27,624 nt of DNA from a virus. Numbering within the stretch: the first letter of the stretch is position 1; the number at the start of each line of letters is the position of its first letter. Shown piece after piece: positions 1 to 24,298 of this stretch. The stretch is taken from positions 1 through 27,624 of IMG/VR virus record IMGVR_UViG_3300021964_000409, one strand, 5' to 3'. Under the pieces are notes generated by a model, which did no database searches, was not told where the DNA came from, and saw nothing but the letters and a program-made list of their open reading frames with translations. The position numbers and the translations under genes were made by a program.

Positions 1-715
1 AAACATCAACTGTTTTGTTGTTCATAGTATCATGGAACATGATGTAAGGATAACCTATCTCACCTCTTCTTTGGATTACCTTCGCCCAAATAGCTCTTTT
101 TTCCTCGTCACCCGCAATCATTTCATTCATGAATTCATCTGTCACAGTAACTGCGTGAGTCAAGTCTTGAATAGGTGCACCTTCTGTTCCGATTTCTAAA
201 AACTCCATAATATCTGAATGTTCTACAGGTAAATAAGGTGAAAAACGTCCTCTACGAGTCGAACCTTGAGAAATATTATCTACGACACTCTCAAACAAAT
301 TCATGAAGTGGACAGCACCAGGTGCGTGTCCATTGTCTGTAATCTCAGCACCTCTGTGTCTGAGGTTACCAAAGTACCCTGATGTTCCTCCACCCATTTT
401 ACTCATCTCTCCAACCTCAGCTTGAGTATATAATATGGATTCAATGTTATCACCGATGTTAGAACCAAAACAACTAACAGGTAAACCTCTTTTCTTTCCA
501 AAGTTAGCCCATACAGGTGATGATAAAGAATACCATCCTTTACCCATGTAGTTATAAAATTTATCTGCGAAACCATCAATACCTAATAATTTTTCAGCAT
601 GGTCTGCAATAGTTCTAATTCTTTCTAAAGGTTCTTCACCTTCACTCAAATATCCTCTACGTAAAAACGTAATTGACTCTTCATTAATCCAATCGAATTC
701 TTTTACTTTATTCAT
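1..715 (-). CDS. nrdA: Ribonucleotide reductase class I, large subunit (NrdA), N-terminal part; truncated by window start
   Basis: The catalytic subunit reduces ribonucleoside diphosphates to deoxyribonucleotides in the cytoplasm, together with NrdB encoded just upstream. About 238 residues are visible, from ATG at 715; the rest lies before position 1. The readable protein opens MNKVKEFDWINEES and goes straight into the R1 barrel region. It includes the stretch LPVSCFGSNIGDN, whose Cys82 fits the N-terminal redox cysteine of the active site, and a glycine-rich SKMGGGTSGYFGN segment typical of class I R1. There is no N-terminal ATP-cone, unlike E. coli or T4 NrdA, and this is matched by an ATP-cone on NrdB. 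The start follows NrdB by 19 nt and is preceded by an A-rich stretch with no clear Shine-Dalgarno. The catalytic and radical-transfer residues further on cannot be checked here. Confidence 0.93.
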   Translation of the reverse strand, partial: MNKVKEFDWINEESITFLRRGYLSEGEEPLERIRTIADHAEKLLGIDGFADKFYNYMGKGWYSLSSPVWANFGKKRGLPVSCFGSNIGDNIESILYTQAEVGEMSKMGGGTSGYFGNLRHRGAEITDNGHAPGAVHFMNLFESVVDNISQGSTRRGRFSPYLPVEHSDIMEFLEIGTEGAPIQDLTHAVTVTDEFMNEMIAGDEEKRAIWAKVIQRRGEIGYPYIMFHDTMNNKTVDV

Positions 716-734
716 TTTCTTTTTTTAATTTTTG

Positions 735-2015
735 TTAAAACAAATCATTTGATGTTATTGACTTACTTTTCTTACTGTAATTGATACTTCTTTTATTGAA
801 GAAATCTGTGTGCTTTGTAGTTAATATTTCATCATCAAACCATTCTGTAGTTTCTAATATTTTCTCATCAACATGGAAAATACTGTCAATACCAATAGAG
901 TTTAATGATACATTAAAACGATGTTTAATAAACTCTAAAGTCTGTGTTTTGGTTAAGAAATCTAAATCACCTTCTTCGAATATCCAATCAATAATATCCG
1001 ACTCAGCACTAAACGCTTCCATAGTCGCATCAATTAAATCTTCTACTAATTCAGGAGTCCACCATGACGGATTTTCTTTTTTGATTAGGTTTACCAAATC
1101 AAACCCGAATTCTGCGTGTATATTTTCTTCTTTTGATGTCGCCTCTACAGCATTACTCATACCTTTTAACATATTCTTATGTTTATTAAATGACATAATA
1201 ACTAAGAATTGTGAAAATAATGAAACGTTTTCTACAAACATTGAGAATAATACCACAGATTCAAAATAATCTCTGTTTTCAACTGCCTTAGAATGTAAAA
1301 TAGACTTTTCTAAATACTTAATTCTTTTTCTAATCGCAGGAACTTGTAATAGGTTTTCAAACTCACTATTCAAACCTAATACCTGAATTAAGTTAGAATA
1401 CGCATCTGCGTGTCTAACTTCTGACTCTGCAAATGTAGCACCAACATTACCAATTTCAGGTTTTGGCATTCTTTTATAAATGTCACCCCAAAACGTTTTA
1501 ACCGCAATTTCAATTTGTGAAATCGCTAACATAGCTCTTTGTACTGCAGTTTTTTCAGAATGAGAAAGGTGTACTTTAAAGTCTTGAATATCCGATGTAA
1601 AATTAAATTCTGTGTGTACCCAATATGAATGTCTAATAGCATCAACGTACTCCACCAACTCAGGATATTCATATGGTTTTAAATTAACTCTTTTTGAAAA
1701 GATATCAGGTCTGTGTTTTGAGCGATAAATAATATATTCTCTCGCCACATCATTAAGACCATTATCCATCAATTTGTTTTCAACCATTTCATGAATTTCG
1801 TCTACATGTGGTATTCTTTCTTTATCTTCTCTGAACAAACTTTTTCTAGTTATTCTAGCAATCTTTTCAGCAGTTTCATCATCAACAATATTAATACTTA
1901 ACATCGCCTTAGTTACTGCATTTTTAATTTTTTCTTCCTGAAATAAAACTTTTTCACCGCTTCTTTTAATTACGAAACGTGCGTCTCTTTCTTCTAAATT
2001 TACAAAATTATCCAT
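735..2015 (-). CDS. nrdB: Ribonucleotide reductase class I, small (radical) subunit NrdB with N-terminal ATP-cone
   Basis: This 426-residue protein is longer than a usual R2 because residues about 13-101 form an ATP-cone (VIKRSGEKVLFQEEKI, later AREYIIYRSKH), a nucleotide-sensing domain normally found on the large subunit. The ferritin-like R2 core follows. Probable metal ligands are Glu169, Glu199 and His202 (ESEVRHADAY), Glu262, and Glu297 and His300 (KEENIHAEF). Tyr206 sits four residues after His202, where the radical tyrosine lies in E. coli R2. The first ligand is apparently Glu rather than the Asp of E. coli class Ia. Known biology: in Leeuwenhoekiella blandensis, an ATP-cone on NrdB controls activity through dATP-driven oligomerisation; the same control here is inference. 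The gene lies between the helicase gene and nrdA, in the same direction. Confidence 0.95.
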   Translation of the reverse strand: MDNFVNLEERDARFVIKRSGEKVLFQEEKIKNAVTKAMLSINIVDDETAEKIARITRKSLFREDKERIPHVDEIHEMVENKLMDNGLNDVAREYIIYRSKHRPDIFSKRVNLKPYEYPELVEYVDAIRHSYWVHTEFNFTSDIQDFKVHLSHSEKTAVQRAMLAISQIEIAVKTFWGDIYKRMPKPEIGNVGATFAESEVRHADAYSNLIQVLGLNSEFENLLQVPAIRKRIKYLEKSILHSKAVENRDYFESVVLFSMFVENVSLFSQFLVIMSFNKHKNMLKGMSNAVEATSKEENIHAEFGFDLVNLIKKENPSWWTPELVEDLIDATMEAFSAESDIIDWIFEEGDLDFLTKTQTLEFIKHRFNVSLNSIGIDSIFHVDEKILETTEWFDDEILTTKHTDFFNKRSINYSKKSKSITSNDLF

Positions 2016-2028
2016 AGTGTTTTTAATT

Positions 2029-2036
2029 TATTTATA
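2029..2036 (-). promoter_or_regulatory. TATAAATA box upstream of nrdB (candidate T4-type late promoter)
   Basis: On the minus strand this reads TATAAATA, exactly the T4 late-promoter consensus, 13 nt before the nrdB ATG and overlapping the helicase stop codon. In T4 the late sigma gp55 recognises such a box with no -35 element. The DNA here is very AT-rich, so a chance match is possible, and nrd genes are not normally late genes. Confidence 0.3.
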
Positions 2037-3408
2037 TTTGATTTCCTTGCTTACGTTTGTCAAGCAATTCTTTGATTCTAAGTCTATTCTTCTCTTCCTT
2101 CTGTTCTTCCAACCCTAAGAATGTTACACTTTGTTCGGTATCAATCTCAAGAAGTTCATTATCGAACTTACAATTTTCGAATACGATACCATCTTTACCG
2201 ATACGTGATTTAGTTATCGCAATAGTGGCTAAATTCATTTCTTTTTGTTGTAGTGATTTTGCAACAGAAATAATAACGTGTCCTACTTGAGCTTTCTTAA
2301 TAGAACCACCCATTTGGTCAGTAGTAACAACATCTGAAGATATTGAAGAACGATTACCTTGCGTTGCCGTCCATCCCGCAATGTCAAGTTCATGACACAT
2401 AGCCTCAAAACCTCTCATCACAGACCCTTCACTTTTCCATTCATCACCCAAATTCTTATCAGGCATAATACAATCAATATAATCTAACACTACCATATCA
2501 ATTTTGTTTCCTTCAGCAATCATTTTTCTGATTTGATTTTTAACTTGATTCATAGTCAAAGTATCTGAAGGTAACTTTTTTAGTGTTAATTTATTAGGTG
2601 TTGTATCTTGAATGGATTTTACCTTATCCAACACTTGTTCTTTATGTAAAGACAAGTTGTCAGGCTCAATACCAGTCCATAGGGTAAAATGTTTTCTTTG
2701 AATAATCTTAGGGTTATCCTCAAAAAATACTTGTAAAACATTATAACCTAAGTTAAATCCGTGGTTTGCAATCTTAGTTAGTACGGTTGTTTTACCAACA
2801 CCTGTAGGTGCCAATATTACTCCAATCTCACCTTTAGCCAATCCACCTTTTAAACAGTTATCAATTCCTGGTATTCCAATCGGAATCGGATGTCTAAAAT
2901 CGTCCTGTAGTACTTGGTCCAAATTAGCAAATACATCGTCTAATCCCTGATTTAATTCACCAACCTGTAATGCCTCTCTGACCATCTCTTCAAGTTTGTC
3001 ATAACTCTCAAAATCACCTTTATCGATAATCTTTTGAGCTTTACCCATAACTTTCTGTAGTTCTTGTTGTTTACAGAACTTTAAAGACTTTTCTTGAACA
3101 AACTGATGACCCTGAAATGGAGCCTCTTTTACCTGTGAGACCATGTCCAGTACCATTTTTTGAGCCATAGGTGAAGAAATTTCACTTTTGGTTAACTGTT
3201 CTAAAGTTTCAAATGTTGGTGCGTGTTCGTACTTTATATAGTACTCCTTAATCATTTGCATTATCAAACGAAAGTATTGATTATCGAAGTACTTTGGGTC
3301 TAGAACATCTACTATAGAATTAGCAAAATCTTTATATAAGATGATATTATTTAAAAGTTGTATCTGAAATGTGTTTCCTAGGTATCCAAAATTCTTTTCG
3401 TCTGACAT
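2032..3408 (-). CDS. 41: Replicative DNA helicase, gp41/DnaB family
   Basis: This 458-residue RecA-fold hexameric helicase unwinds the replication fork 5' to 3' and recruits primase. The N-terminal third (residues 1-150) is helical and resembles the DnaB/gp41 N-domain. The motor domain has Walker A APTGVGKTT at 200-208, Walker B KIDMVVLDY ending at Asp309, a polar sensor TATQGNRSS around 347-355, and a basic SRIGKDG at 401-407 in the place of the arginine finger. Length and layout match T4 gp41 (475 residues). It follows a 150-residue unknown gene with a 44-nt gap and precedes nrdB, so it belongs to the replication cluster. No primase or helicase-loader gene is recognisable beside it. ATG at 3408 is the first in-frame start and is preceded by A/T-rich DNA. 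Confidence 0.93.
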   Translation of the reverse strand: MSDEKNFGYLGNTFQIQLLNNIILYKDFANSIVDVLDPKYFDNQYFRLIMQMIKEYYIKYEHAPTFETLEQLTKSEISSPMAQKMVLDMVSQVKEAPFQGHQFVQEKSLKFCKQQELQKVMGKAQKIIDKGDFESYDKLEEMVREALQVGELNQGLDDVFANLDQVLQDDFRHPIPIGIPGIDNCLKGGLAKGEIGVILAPTGVGKTTVLTKIANHGFNLGYNVLQVFFEDNPKIIQRKHFTLWTGIEPDNLSLHKEQVLDKVKSIQDTTPNKLTLKKLPSDTLTMNQVKNQIRKMIAEGNKIDMVVLDYIDCIMPDKNLGDEWKSEGSVMRGFEAMCHELDIAGWTATQGNRSSISSDVVTTDQMGGSIKKAQVGHVIISVAKSLQQKEMNLATIAITKSRIGKDGIVFENCKFDNELLEIDTEQSVTFLGLEEQKEEKNRLRIKELLDKRKQGNQI

Positions 3409-3452
3409 AATTTCTAATGAAGTTTAGTTTGTGTGAGTTTTAATAAATATGA

Positions 3453-3905
3453 TTAATTCAATGAATAATCCAGATATTCGTGAGTTAAATTTTCTCTTGA
3501 AAAAATGTCAGTCAACATACGAAGTATATTTTTTAGTCTTGGGCGTATGTCAACAGTATATCTTACCTTCGGAGGGTATAATTTAGCATCCCATCCAGAC
3601 TGACAAATTGTCTCATCTCCAATCTTAATTGTCATGAAAAAATTCTCAGGACCGTCAGTATTTGAAGTGTTTAGAATCTCTTCATCCACAGCAATTTGTT
3701 CGTAATTTTCAAGTAGATAGTAACAAGATTTGTTGGTTAAATCTCTCTTAATATCATAAATGATATCATGAATAGTCTCCATTAAATCTAAACTTTTACG
3801 TGCGTTAGGGTTGTATCCTCTAACGTTGAAGTAACGTTGTACTACGATGTTCTCATTTAACTTCAATAAGAACTCTAGCTTTACTACATCATTCTGTTCT
3901 TTCAT
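3453..3905 (-). CDS. Unrecognised 150-residue protein in the replication cluster
   Basis: I do not recognise a family with certainty. The protein has a beta-rich N-terminal third (EFLLKLNENIVVQRYFNVRG), a helical segment around residues 38-57, an acidic middle, and a C-terminal stretch with a basic patch (RPRLKNILRMLTDIFS). It has only two cysteines, no signal peptide and no membrane segment, so it is probably a soluble cytoplasmic protein. It starts 4 nt after the RNase H stop, suggesting translational coupling, and lies just ahead of the gp41-like helicase. Position suggests a role in replication, for example a helicase or polymerase accessory factor, but no motif shows this. Confidence 0.85.
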   Translation of the reverse strand: MKEQNDVVKLEFLLKLNENIVVQRYFNVRGYNPNARKSLDLMETIHDIIYDIKRDLTNKSCYYLLENYEQIAVDEEILNTSNTDGPENFFMTIKIGDETICQSGWDAKLYPPKVRYTVDIRPRLKNILRMLTDIFSRENLTHEYLDYSLN

Positions 3906-3909
3906 AATT

Positions 3910-4917
3910 TTACTTTTTGTTTTTAAATCTTCTTTTTTCTTTTCTTGTGAGTTTCATAAAGGGTTGTAGGAACTCAACCCAAGCATTGTCTTTTTTTGGT
4001 AGGTATTTGAAAAGTCCATCTTCCATCATGTACTTTATTAAGTTTTTGTACCCCCTACCTTCAGGGTCCAAATCTTCTCGATAATATAATTCTATTTCTT
4101 CCTTTCCATCTTCCGTAATTAAAGGGTTAGACAAATCTACTATTTTTTTGTTAGTATCTAAAATTTCTTTTCCAAATGTACCATTCTTTGTTGTTCCCTC
4201 AACCAAGTTAATCAAAGTCTTGTTTTTGTTGTTATCTTCGATTAACTCATTTGCTCGGTTTAAAATATTGTCAATAGATGTCGGACTGTCAACTATCTCA
4301 GGAAAAAACTTTAAAACAGTCTTTTCACCCATCCTAAGAATACCGTCAATATTATCCGACTTATCACCAGTAATAACTTTTAATGTAACAACATTTTCAG
4401 GAATTACTTCAATGTGACCAAACTTAACTTTATCCCCCTTCTTTATGTATTCTTTTTTCAAAGGAGAATAAATTTGTACTCGGTCTGATATTAATTGTGT
4501 AAGGTCTTTATCTGATGAAAATATAGTTTTATTCTCATCTTGAGAAATTTTACAGTAGTAGGATATAGAATCATCCGATTCACAACCGTCAAGTGTGACC
4601 TGACGAATGAACATTTCTTCCAAATACAGACGCACACGTGACTTCTGGTGATAGAACGACTGTTTCTTTATCTCATTCATCGTCTCACGTCTATTGTCCT
4701 TATATTGGGGATATAAGGCACGTCTTTGGGAGGCATTGTTATTACCATCCCAAAAGACTATAACCTTGTCGTAGTTATGTTCCTCTAAAAACTTTTTGAG
4801 TGTGTTGATAAAATGAAATATACCACCTATGTGATTACCTTCATGGTAATAATCTCTAACACCATGAAATCCAATCTTAAATAGGTTGTCACCATCAACC
4901 AATAGAGTCTTAGTCAC
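3910..4917 (-). CDS. rnh: RNase H / FEN-type 5' nuclease (T4 Rnh-like), GTG start
   Basis: This 335-residue member of the 5'-nuclease (FEN/PIN-like) family would remove RNA primers and adjacent DNA from lagging-strand fragments. The acidic metal-binding set is visible in order: LLVDGDN (Asp8, Asp10), FWDG (Asp57), CESDDS (Glu113, Asp115, Asp116), SSDKDL (Asp136, Asp138) and GDKSDNIDGI (Asp185, Asp188), followed by the helix-hairpin-helix region. The start is GTG at 4917: Asp8 is essential to the fold and the next methionine is only at residue 80, so no ATG start is possible. AAGG immediately precedes the GTG. The gene follows uvsX by 10 nt. Length is close to T4 RNase H (305 residues). Confidence 0.92.
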   Translation of the reverse strand: MTKTLLVDGDNLFKIGFHGVRDYYHEGNHIGGIFHFINTLKKFLEEHNYDKVIVFWDGNNNASQRRALYPQYKDNRRETMNEIKKQSFYHQKSRVRLYLEEMFIRQVTLDGCESDDSISYYCKISQDENKTIFSSDKDLTQLISDRVQIYSPLKKEYIKKGDKVKFGHIEVIPENVVTLKVITGDKSDNIDGILRMGEKTVLKFFPEIVDSPTSIDNILNRANELIEDNNKNKTLINLVEGTTKNGTFGKEILDTNKKIVDLSNPLITEDGKEEIELYYREDLDPEGRGYKNLIKYMMEDGLFKYLPKKDNAWVEFLQPFMKLTRKEKRRFKNKK

Positions 4918-4927
4918 CTTCGTTCTT

Positions 4928-5932
4928 TTAAATGTCCAACGATTCTTCTTCTAACTTAAAGTCACCTGATGTACCGATAACTTTTTTCCAATATTCCGAT
5001 TGTTCGGTTTTGTACGTCTCAATAGATTTTTTTTCTTCTGACGCTTCTTTTCCTGCGAGAAACCCGTGAGGAGTGACAATAATTTTACCGTCCTCATATC
5101 CGAGACCATTAATGTGGTTTTTCATAACAGAAATCTTAGTTCTTGATGCAAACTTTACTTTTCTCTTATCTTTAACCGCAGTAATCTTAGTGGTACCAGC
5201 ATTTTTCTGATTACCAAACAAGAAAACTAATGATGAGTTTAACCAAATAGATTCTCCACCTTTAGCTTTAATTTTAGGTTGTCCAAAAGGATTGTCAGGT
5301 AATTCAACCCACGGTTGATTAACAATAACCAAAGTGTTTTCATATTTTGATTCTGCTCTACGAGAACCTGAGATTCTTTGGTTAATACCCATACCAATTT
5401 TGTCTGCCAATGTAGCTGCATTATGTTGCTTACCACCCTTACCTTCATAAGTCATTTTACAAGGTACAGAACCTACAGAGTCCCATAAGAATAGTAAATC
5501 ATACTCCAATTCACCTTTCGATTGAGCATCTAATAGTTCATTGATATAATCAGTGATTTGTTCAATATATTCAAAATTATTATTGAATATAAAAAATCCG
5601 TCCCATTCTAATTCACCTGTTTCTTCGTCAACAACCTCTTCACATTCAAAACCCATAAGTTGAGCATGTTCGAAAGACCATTTTTGCTCTGTAATAATGA
5701 ATACAGGTAAAATACCCTTCTTCTGTGCATCAACTGCAGTCTTAACCAATGCAGTAGTTTTACCCGTGTCTGAATGACCTAAAAACATATTTAAGTGTCC
5801 AATAGCAGGACCAGGTACACCAACAGCATCTAAGAATTGTCCCCCCAAATCAAAGAATCTTTGAGGTTTGTATTTAGCAGAAGTAGAAAACTTCTTCTTA
5901 ATACTACTAAAATCTTTTTTCTTTATTGCCAT
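4928..5932 (-). CDS. uvsX: UvsX, RecA-like recombinase
   Basis: This 334-residue RecA/UvsX-family ATPase forms filaments on single-stranded DNA and drives strand exchange for recombination-dependent replication and repair. Visible motifs are Walker A GHSDTGKTT at 52-60, the likely catalytic glutamate in FIITEQKW (Glu82), Walker B LLFLWDSVGS (Asp151), and a loop-2 region NQPWVELPDNPFGQ followed by KAKGGESIW. The C-terminus is acidic (KLEEESLDI), as in many RecA proteins. It is the first gene after the gp32 terminator and is followed at 10 nt by the RNase H gene. The start ATG at 5932 is preceded by an AT-rich leader. The terminator upstream leaves little space for a dedicated promoter, so expression may depend on read-through or on an unrecognised promoter. 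Confidence 0.94.
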   Translation of the reverse strand: MAIKKKDFSSIKKKFSTSAKYKPQRFFDLGGQFLDAVGVPGPAIGHLNMFLGHSDTGKTTALVKTAVDAQKKGILPVFIITEQKWSFEHAQLMGFECEEVVDEETGELEWDGFFIFNNNFEYIEQITDYINELLDAQSKGELEYDLLFLWDSVGSVPCKMTYEGKGGKQHNAATLADKIGMGINQRISGSRRAESKYENTLVIVNQPWVELPDNPFGQPKIKAKGGESIWLNSSLVFLFGNQKNAGTTKITAVKDKRKVKFASRTKISVMKNHINGLGYEDGKIIVTPHGFLAGKEASEEKKSIETYKTEQSEYWKKVIGTSGDFKLEEESLDI

Positions 5933-5944
5933 ATTATTTAATGA

Positions 5945-5975
5945 TAAAAAATGGTGCAGACATTGTCTGCACCAT
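5945..5975 (-). terminator. Rho-independent terminator after the gp32-like gene
   Basis: A nearly perfect palindrome at 5951-5975 (arms ATGGTGCAGACA and TGTCTGCACCAT around a single central base) is followed on the minus strand by a run of T (5945-5950). It starts 15 nt after the gp32 stop codon and separates this heavily expressed type of gene from uvsX. Confidence 0.9.
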
Positions 5976-5989
5976 CATGTTAGTTTTTT

Positions 5990-6844
5990 TTAGAACGGTA
6001 GGTCCTCATCGACCTTCATATTTGCTTGTGGGTCTTGTGTACTTTGTGAAGTATTAGAACCACCCATGGTCATTTCTTCTTCACTACTATCACCGTAAAC
6101 ATATTTCTTAGCCTCACTATCCCATACAGGAGTCTCTCCTCTTGCAACAGCCTCTAAGTATTCTACAGGTTTTTGTGAATATACATCCGCCCATGTCAAT
6201 TCATCTTCCATCCACTCTTTCATCTGAGATACATCATCGTGTAATGGTGTTGGGTCATCATACATGATAGTCTGAGTAATTGTATACTCTTTACCCGCAG
6301 GTGTTTTAGCTTTAGTCAATTCAACAATTAAATCACGACCTGTTTGAGAATCTGTAATATCACCTTTTTGTTTCCAAATCGGAATGATTTTATCTAAAAT
6401 TCCTTCTTGCTTATAGTTGTCTTTGAATCTCCAAAATTTAACACCATCTTCTTCTCTGTCTCGGTCAATAACTTTTACAATGTAGAATTTACGAGAACGG
6501 TATTGTCTTGCCAATTCTTTGTCTGAAGCTTTACCTGTAGAAATTAATTCTTCGTAGACTTCGTTCAATGGTGAACGTTCTCCGTCATTTTTACCAGGGT
6601 CATAAAGTTTCATCCACTGACCATTAACCTGTAGTTCATGGTACCATACTTCTTTAAATGGTGACGAACCATCTGAAGTTGGAAGAATACGAACTCTTCT
6701 CTGACCTGTTTTTTCATTTTTCTGAAGAATAGTTGTGAAATACTTCTTCATTCTTTCGTCTTGTGACATTCCTGTCCCACCACCCATAGATGTGGTGTTT
6801 TTTTCGTACTGTGCTAATACAGCATCTAAACTTGAATTACTCAT
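5990..6844 (-). CDS. 32: Single-stranded DNA-binding protein, gp32-like
   Basis: This 284-residue protein should coat single-stranded DNA during replication and recombination and interact with UvsX and the replisome. It matches gp32 in length, in an OB-fold core starting near QRRVRILP (48-55), and in the segment YHELQVNGQW (68-77), which parallels the gp32 sequence leading into its zinc ribbon. Two features are unusual. There is no cysteine anywhere, so the T4-type zinc site cannot form. The C-terminus is a Gly/Ser/Gln-rich linker ending in DEDLPF, very like the tip of bacterial SSB (DDDIPF). The N-terminus lacks the basic KRKST cooperativity motif of T4 gp32. The gene has its own promoter region and terminator, so it is probably a separate unit. 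An alternative is a divergent phage SSB of another lineage. Confidence 0.88.
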   Translation of the reverse strand: MSNSSLDAVLAQYEKNTTSMGGGTGMSQDERMKKYFTTILQKNEKTGQRRVRILPTSDGSSPFKEVWYHELQVNGQWMKLYDPGKNDGERSPLNEVYEELISTGKASDKELARQYRSRKFYIVKVIDRDREEDGVKFWRFKDNYKQEGILDKIIPIWKQKGDITDSQTGRDLIVELTKAKTPAGKEYTITQTIMYDDPTPLHDDVSQMKEWMEDELTWADVYSQKPVEYLEAVARGETPVWDSEAKKYVYGDSSEEEMTMGGSNTSQSTQDPQANMKVDEDLPF

Positions 6845-7904: not shown

Positions 7905-10900
7905 TTATGCTAGTATTTTGATAACCGCATTTAACATTTTTTCCTTAATATCATCAAATTGTTGTTGTGTAAATGTACCATTACTAATTTTCGTATCAGT
8001 TTCTTGTTTAATCTGTGCACCATTTTTTCCCGTTGCATAATCCTGAACCCATGTAGATAAGTAAAGATATGTCAAGGCGTTTGCAAGTTTCTCATCGTCA
8101 TTTGTAATTGTTGTTGATAGTGAAATTAGTTTATCAATTATAGTAGTATAATTTACAAAGAACTCGATAAAGAATTTAATACTATTTTCTTTATTTTCAA
8201 AAGAGAAAATTGGTATTGTTGGTACTACTACTTCACCATTAACTTGTGATGATTGAGAATTATTTTTTACACACACTTGTCCATTTGTGAATCCTGTTAA
8301 ATTTTGATATCTGCTTGAAGTTGAATTAATACCAAATAAGTTATTGTTTGTACAATCAAATGAACCAATCCCACTATTCATTAAATAACACACCCCAAGA
8401 GAATATGCCCTTAAACTTCTACTATAGCTTGTTATAGTATTAAGATGATTAATCACATCATTAACTGCTATTCTTGTATTTTCAAAATCAACAAAACCTA
8501 TTGATGGGAATTGAGTTATGTCATTACACGCACCACTCTCATCAGGAACTAAAGGATTATTAATTCTAGTTTCATTATTTTGATTAGTTGCATTTTGTGC
8601 TGTCGCTTGTGATTGTTTTTTACGGTAAAAGGTTTCATACTTCTTCAATAGATTTTTATTTACACTCATTACTAATTTATCTATCGAAGGGAAAGAGAAT
8701 ATTGGTTGTCTCATACCTTCAAATGAAGTTTCAAATCCATTTACGTTAATGCTATGACTTACATTAGTAATGAAATACGGTCCATAAAACATCGGGACAT
8801 GTCTTAGATTAAAGTACATCGTTGGTTGTATCATCATATTACCCATTGACGACACACTACAGGTATAACTTCTTGTTCTGTAGATATTATATAATGAAGT
8901 TGTTTGTTGTGCAACCTTATCACCCGCAGCTTGGTTTGCCATATCACTTAAAACCTGAAAACTTTCTGAAGTGTTCTTGTATTGGTTTTGGTCCAAACTA
9001 ATAGATTTGAAAATATTTTGATTACGTATACCAAAGTCTAAATTGAAACCTACAACTTTATTAGACCTACTCCAATCTATTTTATTACTTTGATTTTCTA
9101 ATAGTGGATTATTACTTCCTCTTCTCAAATCAAATACATCTGTTTTAAATCTTGAACTTTTGTTTTCTTTCATATCAAGATGTTCAGATGGCTTACCAAC
9201 ATACATACATAAAAATTTAGGTCTCGAGTCTTGATAATCTACTGATAAGAATGTACCAAATGCAGAATTGGCAATATCAGGATTTACTGTCGGTGTTCCA
9301 TTTTTAGATGCCTCTTGAATACCATAGAAATTTATATATGACGGTAACGCCATGAATATAAAGTTATTCTGAGAAAGTATATAACCAATTAAACTCATTA
9401 GAGAATAACTTGATACTTTTCCTTTTAGGTATCCTTTTAATGATATTACATCAATAGTAAACGTGTCCCCAATATCTCTGTTAGCCCTGTCTAAAAATAA
9501 GAAGTCTTCAAATAATGTTCTTGTTTTAAAATTACCACCAGCAATCCATTTATCATTAAATGTTTTTAATGTTGAGTACACTTCTAATTTTGGCTGATTA
9601 CCATCAACAGCACTTAAACCACCCGTAGTATTAGACTCAGTGTAATTAGGTAACTTATTTCTTAATTGATTAAAAGTATTATTTAATACCGTCTGTCTAA
9701 AAGTAATTTGGTCATCCAATAATTGTTGTACCGTTGAATTAAACGATTGTGTCGTTATTGTGTTATCTTTCAACTTTTGCGTTGCGTAAATTTTAATAAT
9801 CTTAGATAACTGTTGTATATTTGATGTAGTAAAATTAATATTATTATCTATAAAGAAGTCAGTAATATATGAACCATTGTCACTATATTCCAAACCATCT
9901 ATAGTTGAGAACCCAACATATGTTCTAAGAGTATTCCATTCATCTGAATTATTAAGTTGACTATTAACCAAAGTGATACCTGAACCATCACCAGGTAATG
10001 TTCCTTGAACGTAATTACCATAGTCTATCGGCTGAGTTACAGTAGGTGGTGAAACAAAGGAACCAAAAATTCTTTGGTTAAATTCACCAACATTACCTAA
10101 TTTCAAAACAACATCGTAATTCAAGAAATCCTTCATGAAGTTTACAGTATTATCCATTTGTAATGATGCCAAGTTAAAACTATCTTTATCTGAACTACTT
10201 GTTTTAGTAAAATCACCAGCAAATCCAAAAATTTCAGACAACACTGACTGTATATTTCTATATCTTCTATCTGTTGCATTTGCAACATTAAAAAACGTAG
10301 AAGTACTAGTTTCACCATCCATGATTGGTACAGAATCATTGAGTGGTTTACAGAAATTTAAAAATTCGGTTTCAAACTTATCTAATATTTCTTTATCAAA
10401 AATAGAGAATAACTCCTCTATACTTGAGTATTGTACATCCGATTCAATACTAAACGCGTCTTGGATTAATGAATCTCCTGTAAAAATTTGTTTCAAATAC
10501 TGAGTAGGTGTTGGTTTTGTAACTAAATCATTATTAAAGAATCCATAGTTCGGTGATAACCATAATGTTCTAACAGTACCATTATAAACAGATGTATTAC
10601 CTGTCATTTCGGTAACCATCTTGTTGTTATTATTACTACACTCAAACTTAGACTGATTAAAAGGTAAGAATCCACAGGATGGTAGTAAGAAAAAGTCTTT
10701 ATTCTCTATAGGTGTCCCTATCCTTTCTTCATTAGTTCTTAAATCCATGTATTGGAAAAAGTTGTTAAGATATAAACCCCTATTAGGATTACCAACAATA
10801 TTACCTGTATTGAATACAATCTGAGACTCATTTAAATTTCCAACATACATTTTTTTATCATACGCCTGTTGCCAATCGTTTGATGTATACCCTGTTAAGA

Positions 10901-13900
10901 CTTCTCTCTCAGTAAAGAAATAATAACTATCATTAATCAATTTTGGATATAAACCAACATTCATTACTGATAAATCTGTTGGTGTGGGTATCGACAACGT
11001 AGTATTAAATTGTTGTGTTACTTGAGTAGTATTACCACTATAATCCCTGATATCGTATGTCGTAGTTGAAGAACTATTTACAGGGTCATAACCACCAGCA
11101 TAGTTATAATCCGTCCATACGTTATCGAGAATATCAACATTATCTTCAATATGTCTTTTGTAACGATGCCATATTGAACCGTATTTTAATATCCACGAAT
11201 ATGGAACTCTGTGAATCGCTGAGAACTTACTCATTACTGACCACACATAGTCTAACTCAGTTTCAACATCATCATCATTAAATGATTTATATTTTTCTCT
11301 AAGTGTTGCTAATGGTAGTGAATTTACTAACAGATATCCTAACGATGTGAATGACACATCACTTCCGTCCACTCTTTGTCTTAATAAATCCGCAGATTCA
11401 CTAATTGCGTTTGCAAAATACGGTGTATTAAGTAGGGATGTTGTTTGTGTAGGTGTTATACCCGATGTCCCATACTCATTACCATAATTTAAGTAAGACT
11501 CGGTAATCCATAAATTTTCAATATTTTTATTTTCATAAAATTCTTTGGCACCTTGTCTTGTTATTTGATTCAATCCTTGTGGTGATGAACCCGCCTGGCT
11601 AAAGTTTTCAAAATTTAAAACATTTTGTGTTGACCCCTCTCCTGTATTTCCTCTCCAATATGTTGAGGTGAATAAAGTTTTATCATAGGTATTGTCTTCT
11701 ATTCTAAATGATGAAATTGTTTTCTTGTTTTCATTAAACACCAACGTTTTTGTTGTGTTGTTAGAATCATTAGTAGAATTTATATTAGTACCATTAGCTA
11801 AGTTACTTTTACTCCATACTAAATCAGTAAAAGGGTAAACATCATAAGTTGTAAATTCATTAGATGTTGTCTTTTTTAAGTATTCTTCAATATTTTCTGT
11901 AGATGTAGAACCATTAGTCACTTCAGGACTATTCTCAAATATAGATACATCATATAATTGATTAGGGTTTTCAACATAATTTTTAATATATGGTGTTACA
12001 AAATTACCCTGTGAATATTGTGTCCATAATTCACCCTCACCATTTAAAGATTGTACTCGTAATTCATTTAAGAATGTTGGGTATGTAAAAGCAAAGTTCT
12101 TTAACTTAATAGTTAATGAAGTACTTTTCTTAACCGCTTCAGATATATTATGATATTCAAAGTCTCCTAATAAATCATATATTTCGTCACTATTACTTGA
12201 AGGTCTAAATAATTTAGTGTAGTTAGATGATAGTATAGACCTTTCTAAAATTTCATATAGGAAATTTGTTTCAGTTAAATTCTCATATGGTTCAACATTA
12301 TTTGGAAATTCAATAGCACTAACACCTATATACTCATTTTCAGTTTGAGGATTTGACAAACCTGTTGGACTTTGTTGTATTTCTTTCTGCACACTACCCT
12401 TTAAGTATTCTTCCACGAATTGTATCTCGGGCCATACATCATATAGATAACCCTTTGTTTTAGTTAATGACTGTGGGTCACCAGGATATTTTATGACATA
12501 ATTTGAGTTACCGTTTTGGTCTATTTCAGTTTCAAAATATTGAGGCCATGGATAAACAATACTATCCTCAGATAATTTACCATCTACAGTCACTTTTTGT
12601 AAGGAATCCTTTGCGTCTGTTCCAAAACTTTTTTCAGGGTCAATAATTGATGTTAATCTTATTGGATTCGCTTTTTGGTCATATGCTTTGGTGTGTGTTT
12701 CATCCATCAATCTTAAAAACGCGTCCGCATTTGCACAGATAACACCAATAGTATTTCTTATTGTCGGATTAAATCCTAACCCACCCTCCGAAGCTGGTCT
12801 CGTTATTTTTCTCGCTAAAGTACGTGATAGACTTGTTTCAATATTTTGTGAGTTTTTATTGAAAATTCTTTCCATCTTATCTAATAAACTTAAGAAAGAA
12901 TTCACAGGGAAGTTAGAATCATCAAATGAATTACCAAACACATAGTATGGTTGTTCTTCTGTAACAATATTTCCATTAACTAAAACTTGTACTTGCAGAT
13001 TTAGTTCAGCTTGTAGTCCTAACTTAAACTCACTAAGACTTTCAACAGTAGGTTGAGCATTGTTTCTAAGAATATATGTGTTTGTGTAGTCAACTTTATT
13101 TTTATCAATAGTCTTTTTAATTGTTTTGACATCTATTAAAAAGTTTATTTGACTATTAATAGTTTCCTTTTTTCCATTATCAGGGTTTTCAATAGTGTAA
13201 CTACCGTTTAAACCAAAGGTGGCATTACTTTCGAGTTTTTCTTTATATTTTTTTATAATCTCTTCTAACTTTATGTTAGCACTCTGAGTTTTTTGTGTGT
13301 TATCTCGTATACCACTCTGTAGTGGATAATACACATATCCATTACCTTTATCTTTTGATTCTACAATAGGTAAGGAACCATCAATGTAATCATTGTAAAA
13401 TGAACCACTAACACTTGAAAATATTTCCTTTCTAAATTTACTAAGGTCTTCTCTATATTTTTGTATATCATTTAATACCTCTAACTCCTGAGGTCCAAAT
13501 TGTTCGTTGATATATCTCTCTAACGATTCTATTCTATATACAAATTCACTAAGTGTTAGTTCTTCGAAATTTTCATCTAATAAACCTTTGGCTTTGTATT
13601 GACTGTAAACCTCCCCTAATACTTGTCTACCTCTCGTTGTATTTTCAATAGTGACTTGTGTTGTTGAACTAACATTTCCAGCTTGTGCCTGTTCTTGTTG
13701 TGCATTAGTAGCTGTCGACCCTTCATTACTAGTTATTTGTTTACCAAACATTCTTGGTGCGGTAAATAAATGTTGGACATTAATATCTTCTAAAATTGCT
13801 GATGTTCTCCCAATAAATTCAGTGGTGATTAAATAATTACCATCTGAAGGGTCAAATCTTGCATTAAATTTCTTCAACATTAATTCATACTTAACTGCCT

Positions 13901-14510
13901 TACCATAGTAACCTTTTACTGTTAAATAAAATATCGGATATGGTAGTTGGAAAAATGCTGAGTATGGTGATTGCTCTCCCTGTTCAAAAAGTGTTCGGCC
14001 TTGAACATCGACCATTTCAATAGTAACCTGAGGTATGTATGCTGCATTATTTTGAATCCTAATACTCGTAATACCTAACCCTTGAGTATCCTCAGAATTT
14101 ATTGTCTTTCTAACTATTTTTTGATTAGGTCGTTGTCCTACAATATATTCTTGAGTTTGGTTAGCACCTTTACCTTCTCTCGCACCTTTACCCGTTTGTT
14201 GGTCAGACCAACTTGTATCCATAGCCAATTTACCTCTCGGACTTAGGAAGTTGATTTCATGTATTCCAGGTTCACCTAAAGAAGCTACTGATGTATTAAC
14301 CACAGAGTCATCTAAGTCTGAACCAACCGCTAATTTTGTTCTTGGTAATACCTTCGCCTCTAAATTTGCATAAAAGACCAAATCTTCATGGTCTACTAAT
14401 CTTTCTTGAACTTCACCATTGGGCAGAGTGACCTTGTTTGGGTCAACCAAAATAATATTTTCGTAATCGTTTTCTACGTAAATGTTTTTACTCTGTCTGT
14501 TATCTGCCAT
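7905..14510 (-). CDS. Giant baseplate hub-like protein (2201 aa) with C-terminal degenerate GH73-like domain
   Basis: A very large protein, rich in Asn, Thr and Ser and probably mostly beta. Residues about 1790-1936 end in a segment (MMIQPTMYFNLRHV, then GPYFITNVSHSINVNGFETS) typical of gpD/gp27/VgrG-type hub domains. A low-complexity Gln/Asn linker follows at about 1965-1993. Residues about 2015-2140 look like a glucosaminidase (GH73) fold: MNSGIGSF, TNNNLFGIN, then FENKENSIKFFIEFF. The catalytic Glu expected in the family's ESGWG motif is Asn2045 here. The N-terminal 250 residues are a conserved-looking structural region (TVKGYYGKAVKYELM) whose function I cannot assign. T4 gp27 (391) and gp5 (575) are far smaller, so this may combine hub and cell-wall modules. 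It overlaps the gp53-like gene by 11 nt. Baseplate location is inferred from context and the hub-like segment. Confidence 0.8.
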   Translation of the reverse strand: MADNRQSKNIYVENDYENIILVDPNKVTLPNGEVQERLVDHEDLVFYANLEAKVLPRTKLAVGSDLDDSVVNTSVASLGEPGIHEINFLSPRGKLAMDTSWSDQQTGKGAREGKGANQTQEYIVGQRPNQKIVRKTINSEDTQGLGITSIRIQNNAAYIPQVTIEMVDVQGRTLFEQGEQSPYSAFFQLPYPIFYLTVKGYYGKAVKYELMLKKFNARFDPSDGNYLITTEFIGRTSAILEDINVQHLFTAPRMFGKQITSNEGSTATNAQQEQAQAGNVSSTTQVTIENTTRGRQVLGEVYSQYKAKGLLDENFEELTLSEFVYRIESLERYINEQFGPQELEVLNDIQKYREDLSKFRKEIFSSVSGSFYNDYIDGSLPIVESKDKGNGYVYYPLQSGIRDNTQKTQSANIKLEEIIKKYKEKLESNATFGLNGSYTIENPDNGKKETINSQINFLIDVKTIKKTIDKNKVDYTNTYILRNNAQPTVESLSEFKLGLQAELNLQVQVLVNGNIVTEEQPYYVFGNSFDDSNFPVNSFLSLLDKMERIFNKNSQNIETSLSRTLARKITRPASEGGLGFNPTIRNTIGVICANADAFLRLMDETHTKAYDQKANPIRLTSIIDPEKSFGTDAKDSLQKVTVDGKLSEDSIVYPWPQYFETEIDQNGNSNYVIKYPGDPQSLTKTKGYLYDVWPEIQFVEEYLKGSVQKEIQQSPTGLSNPQTENEYIGVSAIEFPNNVEPYENLTETNFLYEILERSILSSNYTKLFRPSSNSDEIYDLLGDFEYHNISEAVKKSTSLTIKLKNFAFTYPTFLNELRVQSLNGEGELWTQYSQGNFVTPYIKNYVENPNQLYDVSIFENSPEVTNGSTSTENIEEYLKKTTSNEFTTYDVYPFTDLVWSKSNLANGTNINSTNDSNNTTKTLVFNENKKTISSFRIEDNTYDKTLFTSTYWRGNTGEGSTQNVLNFENFSQAGSSPQGLNQITRQGAKEFYENKNIENLWITESYLNYGNEYGTSGITPTQTTSLLNTPYFANAISESADLLRQRVDGSDVSFTSLGYLLVNSLPLATLREKYKSFNDDDVETELDYVWSVMSKFSAIHRVPYSWILKYGSIWHRYKRHIEDNVDILDNVWTDYNYAGGYDPVNSSSTTTYDIRDYSGNTTQVTQQFNTTLSIPTPTDLSVMNVGLYPKLINDSYYFFTEREVLTGYTSNDWQQAYDKKMYVGNLNESQIVFNTGNIVGNPNRGLYLNNFFQYMDLRTNEERIGTPIENKDFFLLPSCGFLPFNQSKFECSNNNNKMVTEMTGNTSVYNGTVRTLWLSPNYGFFNNDLVTKPTPTQYLKQIFTGDSLIQDAFSIESDVQYSSIEELFSIFDKEILDKFETEFLNFCKPLNDSVPIMDGETSTSTFFNVANATDRRYRNIQSVLSEIFGFAGDFTKTSSSDKDSFNLASLQMDNTVNFMKDFLNYDVVLKLGNVGEFNQRIFGSFVSPPTVTQPIDYGNYVQGTLPGDGSGITLVNSQLNNSDEWNTLRTYVGFSTIDGLEYSDNGSYITDFFIDNNINFTTSNIQQLSKIIKIYATQKLKDNTITTQSFNSTVQQLLDDQITFRQTVLNNTFNQLRNKLPNYTESNTTGGLSAVDGNQPKLEVYSTLKTFNDKWIAGGNFKTRTLFEDFLFLDRANRDIGDTFTIDVISLKGYLKGKVSSYSLMSLIGYILSQNNFIFMALPSYINFYGIQEASKNGTPTVNPDIANSAFGTFLSVDYQDSRPKFLCMYVGKPSEHLDMKENKSSRFKTDVFDLRRGSNNPLLENQSNKIDWSRSNKVVGFNLDFGIRNQNIFKSISLDQNQYKNTSESFQVLSDMANQAAGDKVAQQTTSLYNIYRTRSYTCSVSSMGNMMIQPTMYFNLRHVPMFYGPYFITNVSHSINVNGFETSFEGMRQPIFSFPSIDKLVMSVNKNLLKKYETFYRKKQSQATAQNATNQNNETRINNPLVPDESGACNDITQFPSIGFVDFENTRIAVNDVINHLNTITSYSRSLRAYSLGVCYLMNSGIGSFDCTNNNLFGINSTSSRYQNLTGFTNGQVCVKNNSQSSQVNGEVVVPTIPIFSFENKENSIKFFIEFFVNYTTIIDKLISLSTTITNDDEKLANALTYLYLSTWVQDYATGKNGAQIKQETDTKISNGTFTQQQFDDIKEKMLNAVIKILA
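8090..8470 (-). other. GH73 (glucosaminidase)-like domain lacking the expected catalytic Glu
   Basis: Encoded domain at about residues 2015-2140 of the giant hub-like protein. The spacing of MNSGIGSF, NNLFGIN and the downstream SIKFFIEFF matches peptidoglycan glucosaminidases (ESGWG, NLFGIK, then a helix before the conserved end). Asn replaces the catalytic Glu, suggesting a binding rather than cutting role. The assignment rests on motif recognition only. Confidence 0.5.
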
Positions 14511-14817
14511 AATAGAAGAAGTGATTGTCTAATGCTGCCTTATAATCCTGTAAAGAAGTTATCAACGGAAAAGGAATAATCAATGTTGTCGAATCAGGAA
14601 TATTACTTTCCAACCCACCAAAATTAGGATTAGCCACCATTATCAACCATCCAAAGTATGGTGTGGAGTATATTTCTTGAGATATTTTATCAAGTCTACT
14701 TCTACCAACACGATAAATATATTTTTTATCTGTCGGCTTGGCTGGAATCCTTACAAATGGTACAACAGTTTGTTCTCCATTAATTAAGAAGTCTTTATAT
14801 CTGTTATAATATTGCAT
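14500..14817 (-). CDS. 53: Small baseplate wedge protein, gp53/LysM-like (105 aa)
   Basis: A short protein with the pattern of the T4 gp53 family and related LysM-like baseplate proteins: a Tyr-rich N-terminus, then YIYRVGRSRLDKISQEIY, then GWLIMVANP. This compares with the family theme of a mature chain that must start promptly, sit, and hold a residual aromatic-rich loop. Family role: gp53 joins neighbouring wedges around the hub in baseplate assembly. The start codon overlaps the stop of the upstream 1663-residue gene (TAATG), and its 3' end overlaps the start of the giant hub-like gene by 11 nt, so the three are probably translated in a coupled way as one baseplate module. Shorter than T4 gp53 (196 residues). 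Confidence 0.72.
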   Translation of the reverse strand: MQYYNRYKDFLINGEQTVVPFVRIPAKPTDKKYIYRVGRSRLDKISQEIYSTPYFGWLIMVANPNFGGLESNIPDSTTLIIPFPLITSLQDYKAALDNHFFYYGR

Positions 14818-17800
14818 TATTTAAGTCGTTTTTTACCATTAAAGGTTGTTTTATCACCTGTATTTACTTGCTCATATAAAGTAATTAAATCATCAGATAG
14901 TGAACTACTTGTAATTTTAGAGAAGGTAAAAGTTCTTGCCTTGTCCTGATTATATGGTAAGTATTGTGAGTACTTATCATTAAAATATTCATTTTTAAAC
15001 GAATCAAAAGCCTTAACAGACTCAACATATGCCGATTCATAGTAAAGTTGTAACTCATCTAAAATTTCATTCAACTCTTTTGAGAATCTTTCTTTTTGTC
15101 TATTGTTCTTAAAGGTCATCCCATTGATGAGTTTATTAAAAACTTTGTTTTTATCGTCTTTTATATCCTTACCTAATAAAGTAAATAAACTTACCTCAGC
15201 CGGTGAGTTAATTCTTTTTTCTTTACTAGTTCTAACTAACGCACTCTTTTTCTTAAGAGTAGTATTATCAGGATATACGCTATAAGTAAAATTATCATTC
15301 CATTCATTACTAAAAGTCGTAATCAAATAATACGATTCTAACTTGGTGTATAGTTCCCTCATATCAGAACCTATAACAGAAAAGTCATTAGATAATTCTT
15401 CCAAAGTATCTAATGGAGTACCAGGTGATGAAACATCAACATCTGAAGTACCTGAAACACTAAATATCACAGTACTACCTTGTTTTGTTTGATATCCATC
15501 ACTACCAGTATTAGAACCAGCAGATTGTGTTACAACATAATTTAATTTGTCTATATCAAAAATTAAGGTAGTTTCATCAGAAGACAATCGTTGTAGGTTA
15601 GTTTCCATATTAAGAACATACTCGTTCTTTTTTTCTTCCATTAAACTTTTAATTGAATTTTTGTAACTATCAATTAGAGAATTCTTAAATAAACCAAAAT
15701 TACCATAATCAATTAAAGGACAGGTTCCACTATCAACAGTGGTCACACAGAAATTATAAGTACTATCAACATTGTCTTGGAGGTAAGCACTCTTACCAAA
15801 CATATTGGTATCAACACCGTTTACCGTTCCATCACTATAATCTCTTAAGTTTACAAATAACTTTAATCCACCATATAAGTAGGTATTATTAATCTCCTCA
15901 AGTGAAGACAATACCGATTCCGCATATGATTTATTATGAGTGGTAATATCCTTCATAATACCCTTATAATCAGAAGTACCTGATATTGCACCTGTTTCAG
16001 CAACATTTTGTTGAGTTAAAATATTACCAATAGATACACCACCCAATCTTTGATTTTCTTCAGTCTGTCTTGGGTCCGTATTACCATTTTCTAATTGTAT
16101 AGATTCTAATATCTGAGCATCGAACTGTGATGCTGAAACATCGGTAACATCTGCCCTATCATCATACATCTCAGTATTTGCATAATAATTAAATGACAAC
16201 GCATTTTGTAATTTAGCCACAGGTTCTTTCAACCCTTCACCACCAATAAAATTAAATGATAAACTAACATCCGCAATCATCGGTTGTACACCAATACCTT
16301 CAGGATTCATATCCAACATTAAAGGCTCATATCTGATATTTAATGAGTTGATAACAATCTTTGAGTGGTAAAAATCACCAATTCGTAATACACAAACAGG
16401 TGGGGCACCAAATGCGGTGTTAAAGGCATCATTATAGACTCTCGTAACTCGACCTGTAGAATCTTTTTGAATTGTAGGTATAGTATCACCAGGTCTCATA
16501 CATTGTTGAAGGAATGTCAATCTTGAATTTAATCCTTCAGGTGTTATAGAGTGAAATACGGGTTGGAAGTATTTAAATTTCTCTTTAATACTTTCATAAA
16601 CCGCAGGTGAGTCTTGTTGTACCATATCAAAATAGTTACACTCACTTAAGGTTCTTCTTAAAACTCTTTTGGCAATATCTTGTCTAACTCTTGATTCTTG
16701 TGTTTCAACAGTATTTGTAGTTCTGATATTACTAGTTTCTTGAGTAACACCATTACTATCTGTTGTTGGTTCTGCCGGTTCTTCTGTTTTGGTTGAAGTT
16801 TCAGGAACTATCTCATTATCCATTCTTATTCTCACCCTTCTACAAGCCATCGCCCCTTGTGAAAACTCAGCATCAGTACCTGTAGAAGGAACGGTAGTAC
16901 AATCTACAGTGTTACCATTTACATCCGAAACCGTACCTTGTTCTCCTTGAGGTAACTGATTTATAGTTAATTTTTTATCATCTATATAATTTCCAATTTT
17001 ACCACCACCCTCTATCGGTATTTCTCTCAACCAATTTATAACCGATGATATTCTTCGTTGTGATAATTTTTTATTATATTCATCACTAGCCACAGGTGAT
17101 GCCGCCCCTAAAATACTAATATTTACACTATTACCTTGTTTTAAAGTTTCACCAAGTTTAGTAGTAAATTCTTTATTTAAATTATATGAAGATTTAATCG
17201 TTTCAAAGAATTGAACCATAGCACTCTTCTTAGTCTCATCAGGTTGGTTGTTTAATATAGTAGCTTCTCTACCAATATATGTATTATATGTACTATCATA
17301 ACTAACACTTACCGTTTCATCCCAATTAGGTCTAGTTCCTGCAGGACCTGGAATGTCATTATCAAAATAAAATACAAGTTCTTCTTCCTTAAAGTTAGTT
17401 AATTTTTTATCGTCCTGTTTTGGCTTTTCTGTTTGTATTTGAGGCGGTATTTCCCTAACCTCAGTTTTGTAATCCTCGACTGAGGTAATTTTATTTACAA
17501 TCTCGTATATATCAGACAATGAGAACTGCGGGTATTTCGCAACTAAATCGTATATGTCATAATTTAAACATCCCGCAATGAATGAATCCACAATAGCATT
17601 TACAGCTTCACCGTTCTGACCTTTTAATTCTTTGTCAATCAATAAGTTCATTATTGAAGGGTGGTCAACCACAATCTTCCATGAAAGATTACCAACACGA
17701 GTAGTATTATTGTATGTATATACAGGTTCAGGACGACCTAAAAATTCGTTAGATGTCCACCTTGTACTCACATTTTCATCCACCCTCATATCATATGGGG

Positions 17801-23443: not shown

Positions 23444-24298
23444 TTAAACTTCCTGTTTTTCTCCTCCTTTTGTTAAATAAGTTTTAACTAGTTTATCTTT
23501 ATCTTCTTTATCTAGAATATCTTTAATCTTCTCGATATTACCTGCATCATCATCTGAAAATCCGATATTAGGTACAAAATTGTTTTTTATATCATTTTTA
23601 AAGTAAGCAGATTTTTCACCTAACTCCTTTGCCATATTTTTGACGTAAGATAGGAAGTTTCTTAAAGCAACGATTTTCCCCTCTTCAGGATTAGCAGCAC
23701 TACCCTCACCATAAGTAACAGGGTGGAACTTAGCCAAATCTAAATAAAAGTCAATCATCTCTTTGTCACTCATTTTTCTTTCATCAAAATATTCACGGTA
23801 TTTTTTTAGGTTATTTAATAGTTCGTTTCTACTAATACCATTGTGGTCGGTCACAATCATATTATAAACCGCCTCACGAAGGGTGTTAGGGTTGTGTCCC
23901 CTCGCAGTGATTATTGAAAAAATCGACCCCCCATTTATTGCCTCAACAAAATCATCCCATGAAGGACCTGGTTTTGCCATCATAGCATCGATGATAAATG
24001 CCTTATCCCCCTGAACACCAAAATTACGGTAAGGGTTTTCTGCATAGTTTACAATTCTTTTGTTTTTATAGTCGAAAGGTTCTTTACCTATAATCTCTCT
24101 ATACTCGGCAAAGTCTTCAGTACTCATACCAACCTCATCACCATTTTCATCCATCAAAATAATTTGTGTCGGCATTGTAACTATATTATCATCCCAGTCA
24201 AAAGCATAGTACTTTAAATCAGGTTCACCCGCTTCATCGAAACCTTCTCTTAATTGTTTCTCTTCAGCATATTCTTTAATAATCTTACGTAAATTCAT
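23444..24298 (-). CDS. HAD-superfamily phosphatase-like protein
   Basis: A 284-residue protein with HAD-fold motifs in order: motif I AFDWDDNIV (nucleophile Asp34, acid/base Asp36), motif II SIITARGHN (Thr131), a possible motif III lysine in EEGKIVALRN (Lys208), and motif IV NIGFSDDDAGNIEKI (Asp249-251). All catalytic positions seem intact, so it should be an active phosphohydrolase; the substrate cannot be told. Residues 1-20 form a charged amphipathic helix (MNLRKIIKEYAEEKQLREG) outside the HAD core, perhaps a docking peptide. It lies between the sheath and tube genes, an odd place for an enzyme, and its ATG overlaps the stop of the 47-residue ORF (TAATG), implying coupling. It could be a virion-associated enzyme or a cargo gene in the late operon. 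Confidence 0.87.
   Translation of the reverse strand: MNLRKIIKEYAEEKQLREGFDEAGEPDLKYYAFDWDDNIVTMPTQIILMDENGDEVGMSTEDFAEYREIIGKEPFDYKNKRIVNYAENPYRNFGVQGDKAFIIDAMMAKPGPSWDDFVEAINGGSIFSIITARGHNPNTLREAVYNMIVTDHNGISRNELLNNLKKYREYFDERKMSDKEMIDFYLDLAKFHPVTYGEGSAANPEEGKIVALRNFLSYVKNMAKELGEKSAYFKNDIKNNFVPNIGFSDDDAGNIEKIKDILDKEDKDKLVKTYLTKGGEKQEV

Follow-up and report, generated by a model that had tools for sequence, protein, structure and literature searches.

N-terminal ATP-cones have been described on the class Id radical-generating subunits (NrdBi) of ribonucleotide reductases (RNRs) from viruses and bacteria (Rozman Grinberg et al. 2018), and such beta-subunit cones are found almost only in operons of beta-alpha gene order (Burnim et al. 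2022, PMC9669993); NrdAi enzymes are generally without an ATP-cone (PMC5794259). The cone-on-NrdB arrangement itself is already known. For the NrdBi of Leeuwenhoekiella blandensis (5OLK), the cone-cone interface is formed by helices 3 and 4 and Arg102 contacts the gamma-phosphates (PMC5794259), and the enzyme has a dATP Ki of about 20 uM (PMC8350387). Facklamia ignava NrdBi (Grx::ATP-cone::NrdB) likewise has its cone on the beta subunit, where it acts as an on/off switch via beta4 and binds two dATP but one ATP; it differs by its extra Grx domain (PMC6187632). In StNrdD, the phosphates of the site-2 dATP lie along helix 4, with contacts to Tyr101, Arg105 and Arg109 (PMC12662201). The cone of the E. 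coli class Ia enzyme sits on the alpha subunit, NrdA, binds one dATP or two ATP, and inhibits through an alpha4beta4 ring and the unwinding of helix 2 (PMC11447812). The ribose 3'-OH of the site-1 nucleotide is bonded by a sensor residue in helix 3, a role described for His59 of E. coli NrdA and Gln79 of StNrdD (PMC11447812, PMC12662201), and the E. coli H59A variant cannot discriminate ATP from dATP (PMC11447812).

The viral DNA analysed here (the window), 27,624 bases long, makes up an entire IMG/VR record and carries at one end an nrdB gene followed by nrdA, in beta-alpha order:

735-2015, minus strand: nrdB, class Id-like (NrdBi) radical-generating subunit with N-terminal ATP-cone, 426 aa (Pfam PF00268 and PF03477; 5OLK)
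1710-1976, minus strand: ATP-cone domain, NrdB residues 14-102
738-1703, minus strand: ferritin-like core and C-terminal tail, NrdB residues 105-426 (conserved marks and ligands)
2-715, minus strand: nrdA (NrdAi), first 238 aa, cut by the end of the window, no ATP-cone (Pfam; completed in contig L002)

Residues 14-102 of NrdB match the ATP-cone profile PF03477 with 74.3 bits (E 1.2e-20, curated cut-off 25.8 bits), the single match of this profile in the whole record, and Ribonuc_red_sm is matched at residues 109-383. An earlier note on this DNA had placed a cone at residues 13-101 of NrdB and asked for this profile search; the domain was recovered well above the cut-off, with its range shifted by one residue. 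The L. blandensis structure 5OLK is both the best PDB sequence match (E 2e-158) and the first-ranked Foldseek match of the window NrdB, so that a chance or weak cone call is ruled out by the 74 bits together with the fold match, and the top matches by sequence and fold are all class Id beta subunits (5OLK, 6SF4, 8DQ3, 6CWO, 8DQ4/5). L. blandensis NrdB being the closest solved relative, the statement of the earlier note that the arrangement is known from flavobacterial enzymes is borne out. The Lys/Trp and metal-ligand pattern of class Id (PMC6370689, PMC5794259) is present as Lys173 and Trp176 (L. blandensis Lys174 and Trp177) and as the ligands E169, E199, H202, E262, E296 and H300, along with Tyr206; these residues are conserved at the L. 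blandensis positions in 105 of 105 viral and 81 of 81 bacterial sequences and are invariant in alignment A2. The sequence evidence supports the assignment of the window enzyme as an NrdAi/NrdBi (class Id) RNR with its cone on the beta subunit.

The NrdA fragment in the window contains only the R1 all-alpha and barrel domains by Pfam. Its complete form is available from contig L002, in which NrdB and the overlapping part of NrdA are identical to those of the window; this NrdA is 568 aa long, has the same two R1 domains with PF03477 absent from its full length, and carries cysteines C82, C252 and C267 and a C-terminal C563xxC566. It thus has the features of an NrdAi, namely a length of about 565 aa (the median of class Id alpha subunits is 565 aa; PMC9531940), no cone, the catalytic cysteines and a CxxC tail. 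A cone hidden in an NrdA extension is ruled out by the lack of room upstream of the start, as the L002 frame is closed by an in-frame stop a few codons before the start and, in the 78 relatives with nrdA, no more than about 20 codons are open ahead of the aligned start. The cone-less NrdA proposed from the fragment by the earlier note is therefore confirmed, and E. coli NrdA does carry the cone, as that note remarked. In a small set of relatives (L028-L031 and L042-L045), NrdB is 83-85% identical to that of the window and the adjacent NrdA about 94%, the reverse of what is seen in other relatives, a pattern suggestive of allele exchange by recombination between nrdB and nrdA in these phages.

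The window NrdB shares with L. blandensis NrdBi (5OLK; PMC5794259) the N-terminal cone, the cone-less NrdA partner and the class Id core marks, with about 56-59% identity over the protein, but the two differ in the end of helix 4 and the linker that follows it:

1707-1721, minus strand: shortened helix-4 end and linker, NrdB residues 99-103 (SKHRP), Pro103 invariant (alignments, models)

Helix 4 reads Y94-I-I-Y97-R98-S-K-H-R-P103-D-I-F in the window and Y-I-I-Y-R-N-K-R-A-L-E-R-K-T-N-I-F in L. blandensis, so that the phage linker after the helix-4 "YR" is four residues shorter and counterparts of L. blandensis Arg98 and Arg102 are missing. Cones were accordingly sorted by the number of residues between YR and [DN]IF, five in the short type and nine in the long type. 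A helix-4 motif YRxxRxxxR is shared by four solved two-dATP cones (L. blandensis NrdB, P. copri NrdD, P. aeruginosa NrdA and the NrdD of 9D3X, taken as StNrdD because its residue numbers fit PMC12662201), whereas the window reads YRSKHRPDIF. Tyr101, Arg105 and Arg109 of StNrdD align with L. blandensis Y94, R98 and R102, and the distal site-2 arginine corresponds to Arg109 of StNrdD (PMC12662201) and Arg91 of PcNrdD (PMC11226230). This distal arginine is present in 85/85 flavobacterial NrdBi, 7/7 long-type phage sequences, all four solved cones and 20/20 other Bacteroidota cones sampled (NrdA, NrdD or 450-aa proteins), and in none of 166 short-type phage sequences. At the proximal position, His or Asn occurs in 155 of 165 viral short-type sequences; the distal arginine alone is strictly diagnostic, since about half of the flavobacterial cones have Gln at the proximal position.

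The second difference concerns the site that is otherwise kept, and two positions are needed to describe it:

1962-1967, minus strand: Lys17-Arg18, site-1 phosphate ligands of the hairpin (StNrdD K19/R20, E. coli NrdA K9/R10; alignment)
1791-1793, minus strand: His75, site-1 ribose sensor position (E. coli NrdA His59, StNrdD Gln79, L. blandensis Gln72; alignment)

Lys17-Arg18 is invariant in 146/146 short-type and 91/91 long-type cones. The ribose sensor is His in 144 of 146 short-type phage cones as opposed to Gln in 91 of 91 long-type cones, and all four solved two-dATP cones have Gln in helix 3 where the window has His75. The neighbouring Asp73 of L. blandensis is changed to Glu in the window and to Lys or Arg in many relatives. 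Other residues kept in short-type cones, besides K17-R18, are K29 (ATP in site 2), I30 (2'-OH discrimination) and Y94/Y97; the site-1 dATP ligands are invariant or nearly so, as is the 2'-OH-sensing Ile30. In its His sensor and its lack of site-2 dATP arginines the phage cone resembles that of E. coli NrdA, which is itself without the distal site-2 Arg; the E. coli Trp28 gate is absent from the phage cone, which has Lys36 at that position.

Relatives of the window NrdB are encoded on 498 IMG/VR stretches, and the bacterial viruses with this type of enzyme make up a large aquatic group. The five-residue spacing was found in 265 viral loci, part of which were collected with the short motif itself, and in a Salicola phage; the nine-residue spacing was found in five viral loci on three contigs, in Staphylococcus and Sporosarcina phages, and in 88 of 88 bacterial proteins. 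Two protein searches free of motif selection gave the same picture: all 80 loci taken from the search with the window NrdB were of the short type, and the second search returned short-type loci except for two long and six cone-less ones. At the DNA level, the short motif matched at least 120 viral contigs versus three for the long motif. An assembly error or deletion artefact of a single contig is ruled out by the recurrence of the same linker in the 265 viral loci. The short motif was found in none of 396 Bacteroidota genomes, and the nearest bacterial NrdB are 57-61% identical to the window and all of the long type, which argues against a recent capture from a flavobacterial host. Among viral contigs, L170-L173 and L189-L190 encode cone-less NrdBi that are 63-73% identical to L. 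blandensis NrdB. In the bacterial genomes, four loci (L411-L414, from the Bacteroidota genomes G388, G033, G011 and G356) are open frames of some 450 aa, a length below that of NrdA or NrdD, with an N-terminal ATP-cone of the two-nucleotide type that is about 40% identical to the window cone, and a further locus (L372, G250) has an NrdBi core within a 933-aa open frame, possibly a fusion protein.

Phages with a cone-bearing NrdB above the Pfam cut-off are Staphylococcus phages CF5, Romulus, vB_SscM-1 and Golestan101-M, Sporosarcina phage Lietuvens and Salicola phage SCTP-2. The NrdB of the Staphylococcus (Silviavirus, Sciuriunavirus, Baoshanvirus) and Sporosarcina phages resemble the window in having an N-terminal cone on NrdBi and beta-alpha gene order, but their long linker, distal site-2 Arg and Gln sensor are those of the L. 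blandensis type. SCTP-2 (MF360958) is the only cultured phage found with a short-type cone; its NrdB has the same four-residue deletion and His sensor motif as the window, yet it is distant (49% identity, long branch), and when used as a query over the viral contigs it gave one weak, cone-only match. The NrdA of SCTP-2 also differs in carrying an intein, which has a LAGLIDADG endonuclease (L084:4303-6972), and in Staphylococcus phage CF5 an HNH endonuclease gene sits between the parts of a split NrdA. No description of the rewired cone of the short-type phage clade was found in the literature.

A tree of the NrdB core, built from 37 representatives after removal of the linker columns, places the 19 viral short-type NrdB in a single group (89/88) with the Salicola phage just outside it on a long branch; the flavobacterial long-type NrdB cluster in another part of the tree with the Staphylococcus/Sporosarcina phage NrdB and some of the cone-less NrdB. 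Two cone-less lineages among L170-L173 and L189-L190 branch with the flavobacterial NrdB in this tree. A tree of the cones also unites the short type (91/88); it neither shows nor rejects a single origin of all NrdB cones (p-AU 0.086). The cones of the Staphylococcus/Sporosarcina phages (L082, L083, L362) group with an NrdD-type cone (98/96) and not with L. blandensis in another version of the cone tree, which has only 92 columns and is distorted by the E. coli branch. This hints at more than one transfer of a cone to NrdB, with one origin not rejected. The earlier note had described the ATP-cone as moved from NrdA to NrdB; this is a claim about history that is not supported as worded, given the generally cone-less state of NrdAi and the p-AU value above. 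A two-dATP cone may have lost residues to give the short form, or the short form may have arrived as a cone of different build; the functional prediction is independent of this origin.

The cone appears to be maintained as a working domain, and its interface elements can be located:

1716-1805, minus strand: helices 3 and 4 of the cone, NrdB residues 71-100, the cone-cone interface in 5OLK (AF2, dN/dS, PMC5794259)

Over 106 sequence pairs whose synonymous divergence was usable, dN/dS comes to 0.082 for the whole cone, 0.034 for helices 3-4 (residues 68-98) and 0.038 for the core, and the values for the cone and for helices 3-4 rule out a decaying phage cone. AF2 places helices at residues 71-84 and 88-100. 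The interface residues M83, I95, I/L/V96 and the K/R92 position are conserved in phage cones. Helix 4 ends two residues past the YR Arg in the window model, compared with six in a Zobellia homologue, although the model is weakest at residues 102-117 (pLDDT below 50) and this predicted shortening is supporting evidence only.

Keeping, dropping or retuning the dATP brake decides how far lytic phages can raise host dNTP pools. Cone loss has been described for the RNRs of cyanophages and of eukaryotic viruses; here the cone is kept under strong selection, and environmental phage sequences numbering in the hundreds differ in its dATP-specific contacts. It appears somewhat more probable than its converse, judging from the residues, that this is a working cone with altered nucleotide sites and E. 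coli-like logic, with a dATP brake predicted to be weakened or retuned. Starting from the domain content, the residue changes and their near-complete distribution in the clade, the purifying selection and the predicted helix shortening, the mechanism would run as follows. The canonical site 1 would be kept, with His replacing Gln as ribose sensor, and with helix 4 and the linker shortened by one turn, the arginines that hold the site-2 dATP phosphates are absent. The lysine for the second ATP being kept, ATP could occupy both sites and NrdB would stay an active dimer, while dATP would bind only, or mainly, in site 1, a one-dATP/two-ATP logic. As dATP would then not clamp helix 4 from site 2, the inactive cone-cone tetramer may be weaker or differently tuned, and the phage might continue dNTP synthesis at dATP concentrations under which a flavobacterial enzyme of the L. 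blandensis type would be shut down. Between a brake that is kept and one altered to escape dATP shut-off, the two options raised by the earlier note, the sequences favour a domain that is kept with nucleotide sites that are altered, whereas the escape itself stays a prediction. That a widespread phage clade has re-engineered its beta-subunit cone into one that reads ATP and cannot take the second, clamping dATP is put forward tentatively, at a little below an even chance.

The main counter-argument to a weaker brake comes from the E. coli analogy itself: one dATP per cone is enough for strong inhibition of E. coli NrdA, whose site 2 is not needed for the off-state (PMC11447812), so that loss of the dATP site 2 need not weaken inhibition and the brake may survive in another form. 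The largely conserved cone-cone interface and K/R92 favour a retained tetramer switch. A rather unlikely reading goes further and holds that the L. blandensis brake is intact, with two dATP per cone, inactive tetramers via helices 3-4, and a deletion and His that are neutral or compensated. Helices 3-4 are indeed constrained to the same degree as the catalytic core, the cones of F. ignava bind two dATP despite strong sequence differences (PMC6187632), and the basic K100, H101 and R102 of the window might partly substitute for the lost arginines nearby. These basic residues are, however, not conserved, Lys or Arg being missing at residues 99-102 in 25 of 128 relatives, and the distal arginine is missing in every short-type cone, while all other NrdB, NrdA or NrdD cones of this type that were sampled have it, the two linked changes being near-fixed across the clade. 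It is more doubtful still that the short type is ordinary inherited variation, from bacterial NrdBi of an unsampled host lineage and with nothing phage-specific about it. The bacterial search with the short motif covered Bacteroidota genomes, the Salicola phage indicates that the type occurs in more than one habitat, and the single origin of NrdB cones is neither shown nor rejected; on the other side stand the empty result in the 396 genomes, the long linker of all 88 bacterial cone-NrdB, the excess of short over long motifs in viral contigs and the low identity of the closest bacterial NrdB.

A cone without a useful dATP response, serving as an ATP-only activator or as a structural or assembly module, seems the least probable reading. 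It would agree with the retention of the ATP-mode site-2 ligands K17 and K29 alongside the loss of the dATP-mode ligands, and a lytic phage would gain from unrestrained dNTPs, as argued for cone-losing cyanophage RNRs (PMC6370689), but the near-invariance of the site-1 dATP ligands and Ile30 speaks against it, and a brake that is not needed could just be dropped, as in the cone-less NrdB of a syntenic Flavobacterium phage, Immutovirus. If, on the other hand, the tentative reading of a re-engineered cone is true, the short type would amount to a naturally dATP-desensitised (or ATP-biased) RNR switch, whose tuning rests on a one-turn deletion and the Gln/His sensor difference, where other phages simply delete the cone. 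The short-type clade provides a natural set of mutants for testing the model of ATP/dATP discrimination by sites 1 and 2.

The surroundings of the RNR genes bear on the host, the replication genes lying directly upstream of nrdB on the same strand:

2032-6844, minus strand: replication block, followed by nrdB-nrdA (order as in Immutovirus)
5990-6844, minus strand: gp32
4928-5932, minus strand: UvsX-like recombinase
3910-4917, minus strand: 5'-3' exonuclease
2032-3408, minus strand: DnaB-like helicase

Among 50,697 phage records the window recombinase matches only that of Immutovirus (42%), which shares the order gp32-recombinase-exonuclease-DnaB-NrdB-NrdA; its NrdB is 34% identical to the window NrdB core. 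The synteny suggests that the host is probably a member of the Bacteroidota. A 150-aa protein between exonuclease and helicase (3453-3905, minus strand) has no family matches and no annotated counterpart at that place in Immutovirus. T4-type tail genes are also present in the window. Two proteins of the structural region, of 2201 and 1663 aa (7905-14510 and 14817-19808, minus strand), have no PHROG match, and a 284-aa protein of the tail cluster (23444-24298, minus strand), with no Pfam or PHROG match, contains an FDWDDNI motif reminiscent of HAD phosphatases. The tail sheath (24510-27623, minus strand) is about 1000 aa or more in length; only some 340 C-terminal residues match T4-type sheath families, and the remainder has the look of a very large insertion or extension.
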